DNA of 64,000 nucleotides from Chryseobacterium lathyri. Its GTDB lineage: Bacteria > Bacteroidota > Bacteroidia > Flavobacteriales > Weeksellaceae. Under the pieces are notes generated by a model. That model was not told the origin of the DNA, ran no database searches, and worked only from the letters and a program-made list of their open reading frames with translations. The DNA lies in contig NZ_JAUSSF010000001.1 in the NCBI RefSeq assembly GCF_030812195.1, positions 186,001 through 250,000 of the forward strand, read 5' to 3'. Both the position numbers and the translations under genes were made by a program. This document shows positions 26,759 to 29,806 of the stretch, piece after piece. The number at the start of each line of letters is the position of its first letter. The stretch's first letter is position 1.

Positions 26759-27058
26759 ATGACACCTGAAAACAATACCAATGAACAGAACAGAAAATTA
26801 GAGCAGATGGATTACAGTCCAAATGAAGATATATTTAATAAGGAAAAACATATCCCGCTCGATGGCGATGGAAATCCCATATTGAATGAGGATGAAAATG
26901 AGGATGAAGATAAAATAGATAAAGGCCTTGATATTCCCGGAATTGAAGATGATGACGACATGGAAGAAATAGGATCTGAGGATGAAGAAAATAATTACTG
27001 GAGCCTCAGTGACAACGAAGATGACCATGAAGAAGAAAATGATGATGTTCTAACTTAA
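26759..27058 (+). CDS. Small very acidic protein
   Basis: 99 residues, roughly 40 percent Asp+Glu, with runs DENEDEDK, DDDDMEE and DDHEEENDD; likely disordered. No signal peptide or membrane segment. It ends just before a terminator (27083-27109) and 90 bp upstream of the DUF559 element. Function unknown. The acidic protein at 17555 is similar in charge but not in sequence. Confidence 0.7.
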   Translation: MTPENNTNEQNRKLEQMDYSPNEDIFNKEKHIPLDGDGNPILNEDENEDEDKIDKGLDIPGIEDDDDMEEIGSEDEENNYWSLSDNEDDHEEENDDVLT

Positions 27059-27082
27059 ATACTGAACGGGTAAATATAGAAT

Positions 27083-27109
27083 AACCTTACTGATTTCCAG
27101 TAAGGTTTT
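27083..27109 (+). terminator. Terminator after acidic protein
   Basis: Perfect 10-bp stem AACCTTACTG (27083-27092) / CAGTAAGGTT (27098-27107), loop ATTTC, T-run. Confidence 0.85.
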
Positions 27110-27146
27110 GTTATTTTTGGAGATCACCTGTTTTATTGTGGAATAT

Positions 27147-27199
27147 TATTCCCCTCCATTGGAGGGGTGGATTCGACTAAAAGGAGAAGACGGGGTGGT
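27147..27199. repeat. Left inverted-repeat arm of DUF559 unit
   Basis: Outer 26-bp arm 27147-27172 containing a 7-bp stem/3-nt loop hairpin, a 13-bp unmatched spacer, and inner arm 27186-27199. Confidence 0.85.
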
Positions 27200-27215
27200 T
27201 AAAAAACACAAAACA

Positions 27216-27653
27216 ATGAAAGAAATACTAACCCACATCAACGGAGTTCCCATCCACAGGAACTTCGTAGAAAATTTACCTTATAACCCTCTCTTAAAAG
27301 CTTTATTAAAAGAAAAACGTAAAGCAGGAATTCTTGGTGAAGTTCTCTTTTGGAAAAAGGTACGAGCCAGGACCTTCCACAATATAGATTTTGACCGGCA
27401 GAGAATTATCGGAAATTATGTTGTAGATTTTTATGTAAAAACTTTAGGATTGATTATTGAAATTGATGGTTCAAGCCATGATGAAAAGCAGATTTATGAT
27501 GGAATAAGACAGGAATATCTTGAGGCTTTGGGACTTCTTGTTTTCAGAATCTCGGATTTTGATGTCAGGAATAATATTGATGTAGTGATGAAGGATTTGG
27601 AGTATTTTATTATTGAGTATTTTGGGACCACCCCGTCTTCCAAAATTCCCTGA
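27216..27653 (+). CDS. DUF559 (Vsr/PD-(D/E)xK-like) endonuclease-family protein
   Basis: 145 residues from ATG 27216; the ORF extends to 27108, but that extension would translate the left inverted repeat. Core motif: FDRQRIIGNYVVDFYVKT, then LIIEIDGSSHDEKQIYD and RQEYLEALGLLVFRISDFDV. This is the DUF559 pattern, related to very-short-patch-repair and other restriction-like nucleases, with Asp, Glu-x-Asp and downstream His as candidate metal ligands. The C-terminal TTPSSKIP is encoded by the right inverted repeat. Nuclease activity is inferred from family; target and role unknown. Confidence 0.85.
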   Translation: MKEILTHINGVPIHRNFVENLPYNPLLKALLKEKRKAGILGEVLFWKKVRARTFHNIDFDRQRIIGNYVVDFYVKTLGLIIEIDGSSHDEKQIYDGIRQEYLEALGLLVFRISDFDVRNNIDVVMKDLEYFIIEYFGTTPSSKIP

Positions 27654-27687
27654 ATTTTGTCATCCACCCCTCCAAAGGAGGGGAATA
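27627..27687. repeat. Right inverted-repeat arm of DUF559 unit
   Basis: Inner arm 27627-27640, an 8-bp hairpin CAAAATTC-CCT-GAATTTTG (27641-27659) absent from the left end, then outer arm 27662-27687. Confidence 0.85.
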
Positions 27688-27820
27688 TTCAGTAGGTATT
27701 TTTATTATAGTCGGTATCTGCAAATCAACACATCATCAAATTCCCTTGCCTATATTTTCTAATTTGAATATCTTTAAAACTTCAAACATTGATTCTAAAC
27801 ATTGAACTTTAAATAGCAAT

Positions 27821-29806
27821 ATGACATTTCAAGAACAGATCCAGCAGGGAATTCCTGATCACCTGCCACAGCCTAAACCATACGAAACCAATATCAACCA
27901 TGCACCGAAGCGTAAAGAAATTTTAGGAGAAGAAGAGAAAAAGCTTGCTCTGAAGAATGCTTTGCGTTATTTCGAACCTAAGTTTCATGAGGAATTGCTG
28001 CCTGAATTCAGAGAAGAACTGGAGAAATATGGCAGAATTTATATGTACCGTTTCCGTCCTGATTATGAAATGAAGGCAAGGGCAATTGAAGAATATCCCG
28101 GAAAATCCGAGCAGGCAAAAGCCATTATGCTGATGATCCAGAATAACCTTGATTATGCCGTGGCGCAGCATCCTCATGAGCTTATTACTTATGGAGGAAA
28201 CGGAGCTGTATTTTCCAACTGGGCCCAGTATCTTTTAACGATGAAGTATCTGTCGGAAATGACGGATGAGCAGACTCTCACAATGTATTCAGGGCATCCA
28301 ATGGGGCTTTTCCCGTCGCATAAAGATGCACCGAGAGTGGTAGTAACCAACGGAATGATGATTCCCAACTATTCCAAGCCGGATGACTGGGAAAAATTCA
28401 ATGCTTTGGGTGTTACCCAATATGGACAGATGACAGCGGGAAGCTATATGTATATTGGGCCCCAGGGAATTGTTCACGGAACAACCATCACTGTTCTGAA
28501 TGCTTTCAGAAAGATTAAAAAAGAACCGAAAGGTGGACTTTTTGTAACTTCAGGATTGGGAGGAATGAGCGGGGCACAGCCCAAAGCAGGAAATATTGCG
28601 GGTTGTATCACAGTATGCGCTGAAGTAAATCCAAAGATCACAAAAATCCGTCACGACCAGAAATGGGTGAATGAGATTTATGAGAATATAGATGAATTGA
28701 TAGAAAGGGTAAGAAAAGCCCAGGAAAATAAAGAAACAGTTTCTCTGGCTTACCTTGGAAATATTGTTGAGGTTTGGGAGAAATTTGATGAAAATAATTT
28801 AAAAATCGACATAGGATCAGACCAAACATCCCTTCACAACCCTTGGGCTGGCGGTTATTACCCGGCCGGGCAAAGCTTTGAGGAGTCAAACAAAATGATG
28901 GCCGAAGAACCCGAAATGTTCAAGGAAAAAGTTCAGGAAACTTTAAGAAGACATGCTGCAGCCATCAATAAGCATACACAGAAAGGAACTTATTTCTTTG
29001 ATTACGGGAATGCTTTTTTACTGGAAGCTTCACGAGCAGGAGCCGATGTAATGGCAGAAAATCCAACTTTAGGAAGAGAATTCAAATATCCGAGCTACGT
29101 TCAGGATATTATGGGGCCTATGTGCTTCGATTATGGCTTCGGGCCTTTCCGTTGGGTATGTACAAGCGGAAAACCGGAAGATTTACAGAAAACGGATGAT
29201 ATAGCATGTGCTGTTTTAGAGGAAATGGTAAAAAACTCTCCTGAAGAGATTCAGCAGCAGATGAAAGACAATATCCAGTGGATTAAAGGGGCGCAGGAAA
29301 ACAAGCTGGTAGTAGGCTCGCAGGCGAGAATCCTGTATGCCGATGCAGAGGGAAGAATGAAGATCGCCGAAGCCTTCAACAATGCTATTAAGAACGGGGA
29401 GATCGGACCAGTAGTTCTCGGAAGGGATCATCATGATGTTTCCGGGACGGATTCGCCTTACAGGGAGACTTCCAATATTTATGACGGTTCAAGGTTTACC
29501 GCAGATATGGCGATCCACAACGTGATTGGTGACAGTTTCCGTGGCGCTACATGGGTGTCTATCCATAATGGCGGCGGAGTAGGCTGGGGCGAAGTCATTA
29601 ACGGTGGTTTCGGAATGCTTCTTGATGGGAGTGCAGATGCCGACAGAAGACTGAAATCTATGCTCTTCTGGGACGTGAACAACGGAATCTCCAGAAGAAG
29701 CTGGGCCAGAAACGAAGGCGCTGTTTTCGCTATTAAAAGAGCAATGGAAGCAGAACCGAACCTGAAAGTAACGCTTCCGAATTTTGTGGATGAGAGTTTG
29801 CTTTAA
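27821..29806 (+). CDS. hutU: Urocanate hydratase
   Basis: 661 residues; NAD-dependent conversion of urocanate to imidazolonepropionate, the second step of histidine degradation. Family-typical blocks: YGGNGAVFSNWAQYLL, GLGGMSGAQPKAG, FFDYGNAFLLEASRAG and the active-site region GFGPFRWVCTSGKPEDL. Full length for the Bacteroidota form. hutH, hutI and hutG are not adjacent, so the pathway genes are scattered or in another cluster. Upstream, AAACATTGA is directly repeated at 27784 and 27797. Confidence 0.96.
   Translation: MTFQEQIQQGIPDHLPQPKPYETNINHAPKRKEILGEEEKKLALKNALRYFEPKFHEELLPEFREELEKYGRIYMYRFRPDYEMKARAIEEYPGKSEQAKAIMLMIQNNLDYAVAQHPHELITYGGNGAVFSNWAQYLLTMKYLSEMTDEQTLTMYSGHPMGLFPSHKDAPRVVVTNGMMIPNYSKPDDWEKFNALGVTQYGQMTAGSYMYIGPQGIVHGTTITVLNAFRKIKKEPKGGLFVTSGLGGMSGAQPKAGNIAGCITVCAEVNPKITKIRHDQKWVNEIYENIDELIERVRKAQENKETVSLAYLGNIVEVWEKFDENNLKIDIGSDQTSLHNPWAGGYYPAGQSFEESNKMMAEEPEMFKEKVQETLRRHAAAINKHTQKGTYFFDYGNAFLLEASRAGADVMAENPTLGREFKYPSYVQDIMGPMCFDYGFGPFRWVCTSGKPEDLQKTDDIACAVLEEMVKNSPEEIQQQMKDNIQWIKGAQENKLVVGSQARILYADAEGRMKIAEAFNNAIKNGEIGPVVLGRDHHDVSGTDSPYRETSNIYDGSRFTADMAIHNVIGDSFRGATWVSIHNGGGVGWGEVINGGFGMLLDGSADADRRLKSMLFWDVNNGISRRSWARNEGAVFAIKRAMEAEPNLKVTLPNFVDESLL

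Follow-up and report, generated by a model that had tools for sequence, protein, structure and literature searches.

REP-like hairpins are widespread bacterial repeats. In the REP/REPIN-RAYT layout, a gene for an HUH Y1 transposase, the RAYT, lies between inverted palindromic repeats with a GTAG box, and further copies of the repeats lie scattered through the genome without it, alone or as inverted pairs; such REPs usually number more than 100 per genome (Nunvar 2010, PMC2817692). Another group, the CGTC REPs, which include the Rickettsia elements RPE-4 and RPE-6, is built of CGTC, a hairpin and a CCA tail, with a stem of 8-9 bp starting with AT and a loop of 4-5, and has intragenic copies; a dedicated transposase seems to be lacking and several enzymes are perhaps the movers (Di Nocera, De Gregorio, Rocco 2013, PMC3733652). 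Palindromic DNA translated within host proteins is described for the Rickettsia palindromic elements (PMC10969869). Homing endonucleases, in turn, drive the spread of their own reading frames, and EDxHD is listed among their families (PMC3943268). How, then, does a unit compare in which hairpin repeats bracket a nuclease gene rather than a transposase gene?

The unit in question lies in a 64,000-nt stretch of Chryseobacterium lathyri DNA, hereafter the window (Table 1). Our preferred reading, to which we give a probability of roughly 0.6, is that it is a gene-bearing member of a REP-like hairpin family, with the Vsr/EDxHD DUF559 nuclease as the predicted mover of the arms; that the nuclease cuts the arms as well as moving them is what we infer. 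Both arms are inverted copies of one element of ~55 nt, which reads, outward from the DUF559 gene, CCACCCCGTC, a variable inner hairpin, (AT)CCA or GCCA, the palindrome CCCCTCCnnnGGAGGGG and AAT; the right arm overlaps the final eight codons of the gene and its stop. The geometry given in the earlier note held up on re-examination: outer arms of 26 nt (27147-27172 and 27662-27687) are 96% complementary, the inner arms GAAGACGGGGTGGT (27186-27199) and ACCACCCCGTCTTC (27627-27640) form a perfect 14-nt inverted pair, a CCCCTCCnnnGGAGGGG hairpin sits in each outer arm (27151-27167 and 27667-27683), the left inner arm ends 17 nt before the ATG at 27216, and the codons for TTPSSKIP at the end of the gene fall inside the right arm. 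The 8-bp CAAAATTC/GAATTTTG hairpin that it placed in the right arm (27641-27659) is there too; the left arm, for its part, retains a weak remnant of an inner stem (TTCTCC..GTCGAA), and some relatives have a full hairpin in its place (TTCGGCC/GGCCGAA in L107). Folding as single-stranded DNA yields the stems of the arms (right arm, z -3.33; left arm, z -1.52), and an Rfam search of the arms gave no match. Just upstream of the unit, after the acidic ORF, there is a terminator-like inverted repeat at 27072-27118 of the window (21-nt arms, 81%).

Table 1. The arm-bracketed DUF559 unit and its surroundings, in window positions
Feature	Position	Strand	Basis
Left arm, inverted copy of the repeat element (order on the minus strand: CCACCCCGTC box 27198-27189, degenerate inner stem, palindrome 27167-27151, AAT)	27147..27199	-	inverted-repeat search, ssDNA folding, comparison with relatives
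Left palindrome CCCCTCCATTGGAGGGG	27151..27167	no strand	palindrome pattern match
DUF559 (PF04480) gene, Vsr/EDxHD-fold nuclease, 145 aa	27216..27653	+	ORF, profile match
Right arm, repeat element in plus orientation	27627..27690	+	inverted-repeat search, folding
Conserved box CCACCCCGTC of the right arm	27628..27637	+	comparison with relatives
Variable inner hairpin CAAAATTC-CCT-GAATTTTG of the right arm	27641..27659	+	folding, stem counts
Right palindrome CCCCTCCAAAGGAGGGG	27667..27683	no strand	palindrome pattern match
Small acidic ORF, conserved, left of the unit (context marker outside it)	26759..27058	+	ORF, neighbourhood comparison
Conserved neighbour gene used in the empty-site comparison (hutU-like; presumably urocanate hydratase by its translation)	27821..29806	+	ORF, neighbourhood comparison

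The enclosed gene of 145 codons had been proposed to encode a DUF559 protein related to Vsr, and both parts of the proposal were borne out: the protein matches PF04480 with 84.7 bits (cut-off 20.6, E 5e-24), besides a weak match to PF18741, and comparison with solved relatives gives it a Vsr-type fold. An AlphaFold2 model built from 34 sequences (pLDDT 83) has its best solved relatives in 3hrl (NGO0050; TM 0.86) and in the catalytic domain of I-Bth0305I (0.74; both normalised by target), with Vsr further down (1vsr, 0.48; E 0.11). Residues E42, D71, E82, D84, H88 and D95 are invariant in the 34 sequences and kept in 58-61 of 61 genus rows, reference included. A profile search of the enclosed gene found no match to the Y1 family, and PADLOC and NCBIfam searches returned weak or below-cut-off matches only. 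A Caulobacter DUF559 protein, VsrA, is described as a Vsr-like endonuclease that underlies a DNA-damage response (PMC12907096); given this protein, the fold relatives and the EDxHD homing endonucleases, the window protein is probably a nuclease too. With I-Bth0305I, its EDxHD kin and Vsr it shares fold and active-site layout; unlike them, it has 145 residues with no evident added DNA-binding regions, and it is flanked by hairpins, neither an intron nor an intein having been seen.

There is good support for DUF559 and hairpin arms as a pair. DUF559 matches occur in 82 of 118 genomes of the genus, and a set of 74 subfamily loci was drawn from them that omits matches above 114 bits (another subfamily or leucyl-tRNA synthetase) and most below 40 bits. 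The CCCCTCCnnnGGAGGGG palindrome, at no more than two mismatches, stands on both sides of 69 of these 74 loci, on one side of four and beside one not at all (exact on both sides in 39), whereas at control positions 2.6-3 kb away it was found on both sides in 0 of 50 and on one side in 1 of 50. Eight stand-alone DUF559 genes of another subfamily in the same genus (L040-L047) have no such arms. Whether the arms also flank unrelated genes as a pair, a possibility that the earlier note had raised against itself, was checked, and no inverted arm pair encloses another gene in the samples examined.

The palindrome is also dispersed, as the same note had expected of a repeat-propagating unit. In the 4.5-Mb host genome it is present exactly five times, two of these being the arms (reversed control, none), and seven times at up to one mismatch (control, two); three of the copies outside the unit share the box and have an inner segment of different sequence. 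Exact copies occur in 101 of 118 genus genomes, at 0-28 per genome, as against 1 of 118 for the reversed control. When some 600 nt on each side of 39 dispersed loci from five genomes were inspected, all proved to be arms, 36 by regular expression and three with a base-damaged box; for three of the 39, an inverted partner is present at a distance of 99-134 nt, and one pair in direct orientation, 523 nt apart, encloses no DUF559. Single arms adjoin many other genes. In two related species (G002 and G070) most copies are near-identical over ~54 nt with differing flanks, and the DUF559 unit is the sole arm pair among their 33 loci; solo copies there are mostly of the GCCA type in their inner hairpin and gene-linked arms of the ATCCA type, which speaks against the preferred reading. 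The inner hairpin retains its structure as its sequence varies: stems of 6 bp or more occur in 96 of the 119 distinct inner segments, with 45 different stems among them, as against 4.5% of shuffles. Because this hairpin slides in an alignment of arms, stems were counted sequence by sequence; RNAalifold on 55 arms returned the invariant palindrome alone (7 pairs, no covariation), a constancy that is uninformative since the palindrome formed part of the pattern by which the arms were collected. Orthologous copies show their loops in both orientations, as expected if hairpins extrude (TTT versus AAA in L399/L426, L390/L428, L383/L404 and L398/L411; ACC versus GGT in L403/L435). Two further observations concern the setting of such copies: in G109, a genome without the gene, same-direction arms recur with the same longer flanks, so that larger composite repeats contain the arm (L381, L450 and L451, at G109:C1:2186500-2192000, 2255500-2259500 and 2277000-2278500), and the solo arms L395, L397, L399 and L412 start directly after terminator-like hairpins with T runs in their left flanks.

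Copy number goes with the gene. The median palindrome count is 10 in 69 gene carriers, one of which has none, and 2 in 49 gene-less genomes, 16 of which have none; genomes without the gene nevertheless retain up to 16 copies, which counts against the nuclease as mover. As the genomes share descent, a phylogenetic regression (PGLS) was fitted to 91 of them, 61 with the gene and 30 without (the hutU search of the 49 gene-less genomes yielded 30 retrieved loci, and only these enter), on a tree from 600 nt of hutU. Gene presence predicted more copies beyond the unit's own two arms (slope 0.74 on a log scale, p 0.0009), with a best lambda of 0.6 and p between 0.0002 and 0.006 across the lambda range; corrected for descent, carriers hold about twice as many extra copies. 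This is an association and not a cause.

The comparison with REP/RAYT made in the earlier note stands for the layout, for the dispersed arms and for a mostly single, vertically inherited gene; its other half, that the window unit is itself actively mobile, is not supported as worded there. The two systems have in common a gene between inverted palindromic repeats that also occur without it, singly or in inverted pairs. They differ in that the nuclease here has a PD-(D/E)XK/Vsr fold, the box is CCACCCCGTC, each element has two hairpins, exact copies number 0-28 per genome, and gene-bearing units can, in other taxa, sit in frame within host genes. The unit works like a REP system and, by its defining enzyme, falls outside the RAYT kind. 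With CGTC REPs the arm has its inner part in common, namely the CGTC, hairpin and CCA tail, but the arm adds an outer palindrome and a CCACCC box, its stems start with TT/AA and its loops are mostly of 3. A CGTC-hairpin-CCA pattern was present on at least one side in 53 of the 74 genus loci and on both sides in 21 (it also turned up at 2 of 52 far controls and, in the wrong orientation, at 14 of 74 loci), and on both sides in the alphaproteobacterial plasmid locus L248. As a general mark of DUF559 arms the module was discarded, being present on either side in 4 of 80 cross-phylum loci (the best 80 of 567). Table 1 of PMC3733652 gives CGTC REPs without an associated transposase gene; here, the gene between the arms encodes a nuclease rather than a transposase.

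Could the hairpins be REPs moved by some other enzyme, a RAYT or other transposase acting in trans, with the DUF559 gene a captured passenger? The gene-less genomes with as many as 16 copies would be at home in such an account, and so would the view that CGTC-type REPs lack a dedicated enzyme and perhaps have several movers (PMC3733652). A passenger, however, would hardly be bracketed in 69 of 74 genus loci, or by other arm sequences in many phyla, and would hardly predict copy number after correction for descent, for which reasons we think this account unlikely.

Within the genus the DUF559 gene is mostly inherited vertically, with some moves. Most units adjoin hutU; those of the window's clade share one orientation, those of a second clade are inverted, and the protein tree calls for 12 context changes over 60 rows versus 34.5 in shuffles (contexts lettered A-G by hand; 14 of the 74 rows, broken or short, omitted). 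Purifying selection acts on the intact copies, with a median dN/dS of 0.10 for 97 pairs. Orthologous sites without the gene, which were to be looked for among relatives, exist: by pattern, the palindrome lies upstream of hutU in 8 of 30 gene-less loci (G013, G031, G032, G035, G065, G091, G097 and G104), four of which have a gene-less inverted arm pair there (G013, G031, G035 and G097). The same pattern found the box alone at the gene-less hutU locus of G045; that of G050 has an imperfect palindrome, and nothing of the unit was found at those of G022, G048, G062 and G017. A single palindrome occupies the relatives' unit position in G032, G104 and G050. The 50-nt flanks match those of units at 41 of 49 and 48 of 50 positions for G032 (against L117), at 39 of 48 and 36 of 41 for G104 (against L098), and at 45 of 48 for G050, with 21 of 25 alignable on its right side; judged by these alignments, a single-palindrome site at the unit position is firmest for G032 and weaker for G104 and, above all, for G050. 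At such sites the unit either was deleted between its two palindromes or had yet to arrive. Since each palindrome equals its own reverse complement, the two are direct repeats as well, so that simple deletion explains a single-palindrome scar, and because the arms are inverted repeats, the inversion of the unit in one clade follows likewise. No target-site duplication was evident by eye at the G032 site or at the Deinococcus junctions considered below, and no clean recent insertion was among them.

Active mobility is not supported for the window unit, which sits mostly vertically beside one gene and whose losses and inversion are explicable by recombination of its arms. Recent transposition of solo arms between G002 and G070 was considered and likewise found no support. 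The two species have 15 and 18 loci, respectively, with 10 orthologous pairs, one of them the DUF559 unit; of the 13 exact copies seemingly unique to one species, 12 are matched in the other, 10 by a complete but mutated copy and two by a partial one (L384 and L391), so the gap in exact counts (15 versus 19) is mostly decay. For L395 alone was no counterpart found in the other species. A clean empty site for a solo copy, sought in G002 versus G070, was not found, nor was one for the host genome's own solo copies L034 and L035 across 118 genomes, where the upstream intergenic DNA was too divergent; the L035 copy is also present in G027 and has a degenerate form in G104. Recent movement within the window's genus is not supported, and mobility is better seen in other taxa.

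On two Deinococcus plasmids, with 88% identity between the DUF559 proteins and 80% between the oxidoreductases beside them, the unit occupies two positions within one gene cluster. The bracketed unit of D. sp. NW-56 stands between hpaE and the gene for the oxidoreductase; in D. proteolyticus these two genes overlap by 4 bp and the unit stands beyond the oxidoreductase gene, before hpaB, the equivalent position in NW-56 holding a different gene (VOC family) and no unit. It is possible that the oxidoreductase gene moved instead. Insertion into a working gene is seen in the window's own genus, where DUF559 lies in frame within leucyl-tRNA synthetase in G045 and G060. Residues 293-446 of the G045 enzyme fall between the adjacent residues 236/237 of the aligned solved enzyme 2v0c, and the insert has hairpin arms of another sequence at both ends; at the G060 locus a pattern search found no palindrome, a point against the preferred reading.

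The low dN/dS and the mostly vertical inheritance, together with the place of Caulobacter VsrA behind a DNA-damage response, as reported (PMC12907096), are what one might expect of a domesticated DNA-repair gene, acting in a very-short-patch-like manner or in hairpin removal, with the arms as processing or termination hairpins or as policed sites. Such a role leaves unexplained the insertions with in-frame hairpin arms in LeuRS, MetH and restriction genes, as well as the two unit positions in Deinococcus, and it appears to us decidedly improbable.

Does the layout extend beyond the genus? A scan of genome contigs, from which the best 80 of 567 DUF559 loci were kept (one, L162, being the query's own), covered Bacteroidota, Cyanobacteriota, Chloroflexi, Verrucomicrobia/Kiritimatiellae, Nitrospirae, Planctomycetes, Proteobacteria, archaea and others. 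Bracketing was scored as the best inverted match between 400-nt flanks with a threshold of 30, for which 75 of the 80 loci had flanks long enough, and 60 for the far control. At least 30, with inverted G/C-rich hairpins as the brackets, was reached by 50 of the 75 and by 0 of 60 controls; flanks of different loci among these best 80 match as well (101 of 750 at 30 or above), and part of the bracketing signal is accordingly the shared make-up of an arm family. In a plasmid sample of 17 of 45 records, 12 of 17 loci scored at least 30, compared with 1 of 17 far controls (exactly 30) and 26 of 272 cross-locus comparisons; the five loci below 30, one of them from E. coli, weigh against the preferred reading. 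A common arm-type palindrome was dispersed in 18 of 21 such genomes, in up to 75 copies (reversed control, 2 of 21).

The DUF559 motif was recovered by regular expression in 76 of the best 80 loci and was missing from four; 36 of the 76 lie in ORFs of more than 300 aa, all 36 shared with a host family. Restriction-modification proteins make up 27 of the 36 (13 HsdR, 6 HsdM, 3 type ISP, 2 Eco57I-type, and one each of MmeI, N6_N4 methylase and Methylase_S), and in 12 HsdR the host domains lie, by coordinates, on both sides of DUF559; the other hosts are 6 AA_kinase and one each of His_biosynth, PriA and SpvB-type, in which DUF559 lies at the N terminus, possibly through mere read-through. DUF559 is carried by two MetH-type hosts as well. 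The likeness to Rickettsia palindromic elements lies in palindromic DNA translated within host proteins, with the difference that the in-frame insert here often carries the nuclease itself. In the methylase ORF at L133 1-2724, several translated hairpin-like repeats occur besides those adjacent to DUF559 (peptides such as PSPQPSPKGRG and NPLLPGEGGRRPGEG).

The 27 restriction-modification hosts among 36, drawn from the best 80 of 567 loci, could suggest that DUF559 is a functional part of these enzymes with arm-encoded linkers, the window gene being an unrelated stand-alone relative. The same hairpin design, however, flanks stand-alone genes too, a restriction nuclease would serve no evident purpose in the LeuRS, MetH, His_biosynth, AA_kinase and PriA hosts, and the G045 insert parts two adjacent residues of the synthetase; we consider this explanation very improbable indeed. 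Chance or composition, by which G/C-rich hairpins are common and the bracketing coincidental, would account for short palindromes (0.81 expected per 64 kb at up to three mismatches) but is already refuted by controls at 0 of 50 and 0 of 60 against 69 of 74 genus loci and 50 of 75 across phyla (best 80 of 567), and its likelihood is negligible.

If the nuclease is indeed the mover, how might a unit spread? It would recognise the hairpin arms, as single-stranded hairpins or as extruded cruciforms, and would nick or cut at the arm or the target; repair might then copy an arm, or the cassette as a whole, into another site, as for homing nucleases and RAYTs. In the window's lineage spread may be slow or past, with the gene persisting as a vertical, mostly single copy, while loss to one palindrome and inversion of the unit could proceed without need of the enzyme. 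The same layout in many phyla, sometimes inside working genes, points to a little-noticed kind of mobile DNA. A wider proposal is tentative, and we would put it at somewhat less than even odds: DUF559 nucleases may mobilise phylum-spanning G/C-rich hairpin repeats so far regarded as orphans (the arms described here, the CGTC-hairpin-CCA arms exemplified by Novosphingobium, and the two-palindrome repeats of rhizobia), with cassettes spreading by nuclease-driven copying and with arms open in reading frame that let units settle in essential genes as unspliced translated insertions.

Why does this matter? A compact nuclease of a different fold, bracketed by hairpins in many phyla, is a concrete candidate for an enzyme that mobilises REP-like repeats, of which one of two super-families seems to lack a dedicated transposase in the account of Di Nocera 2013 (PMC3733652), and testing the candidate in vitro would take a single protein of 145 residues and an oligonucleotide of 55 nt. 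If true, the proposal would explain a class of insertions that tRNA synthetases, methionine synthase and restriction enzymes carry in frame, and would give a role to a domain of unknown function. The literature searched, which comprised few subscription papers or preprints, contained no report of DUF559 paired with hairpin repeats.

Plasmids offer a few further details. The arms of the S. meliloti DUF559 locus (L245 1021-1165 and 1626-1745) are two-palindrome elements of more than 100 nt that recur in rhizobial plasmids, and among the matches listed, 29 of 40 plasmid records match the S. meliloti query in the arm stretches alone; these arms are reminiscent of the RIME repeats of rhizobia. In the strain-level comparison for the S. 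meliloti and Sphingomonas plasmids, the locus is covered by the source record alone. Plasmids of one strain of Sphingomonas parapaucimobilis bear three arm-bracketed DUF559 units (L458, L459 and L247), one flanked by transhydrogenase genes, one by sufB and sufC, and one by a GatB/YqeY-domain gene and dnaG. In the Desulfuromonadales locus L226, an element of the classical CGTC type, CGTCATTCCCGCGAAGGCGGGAATCCA, lies ~200 nt downstream of DUF559.
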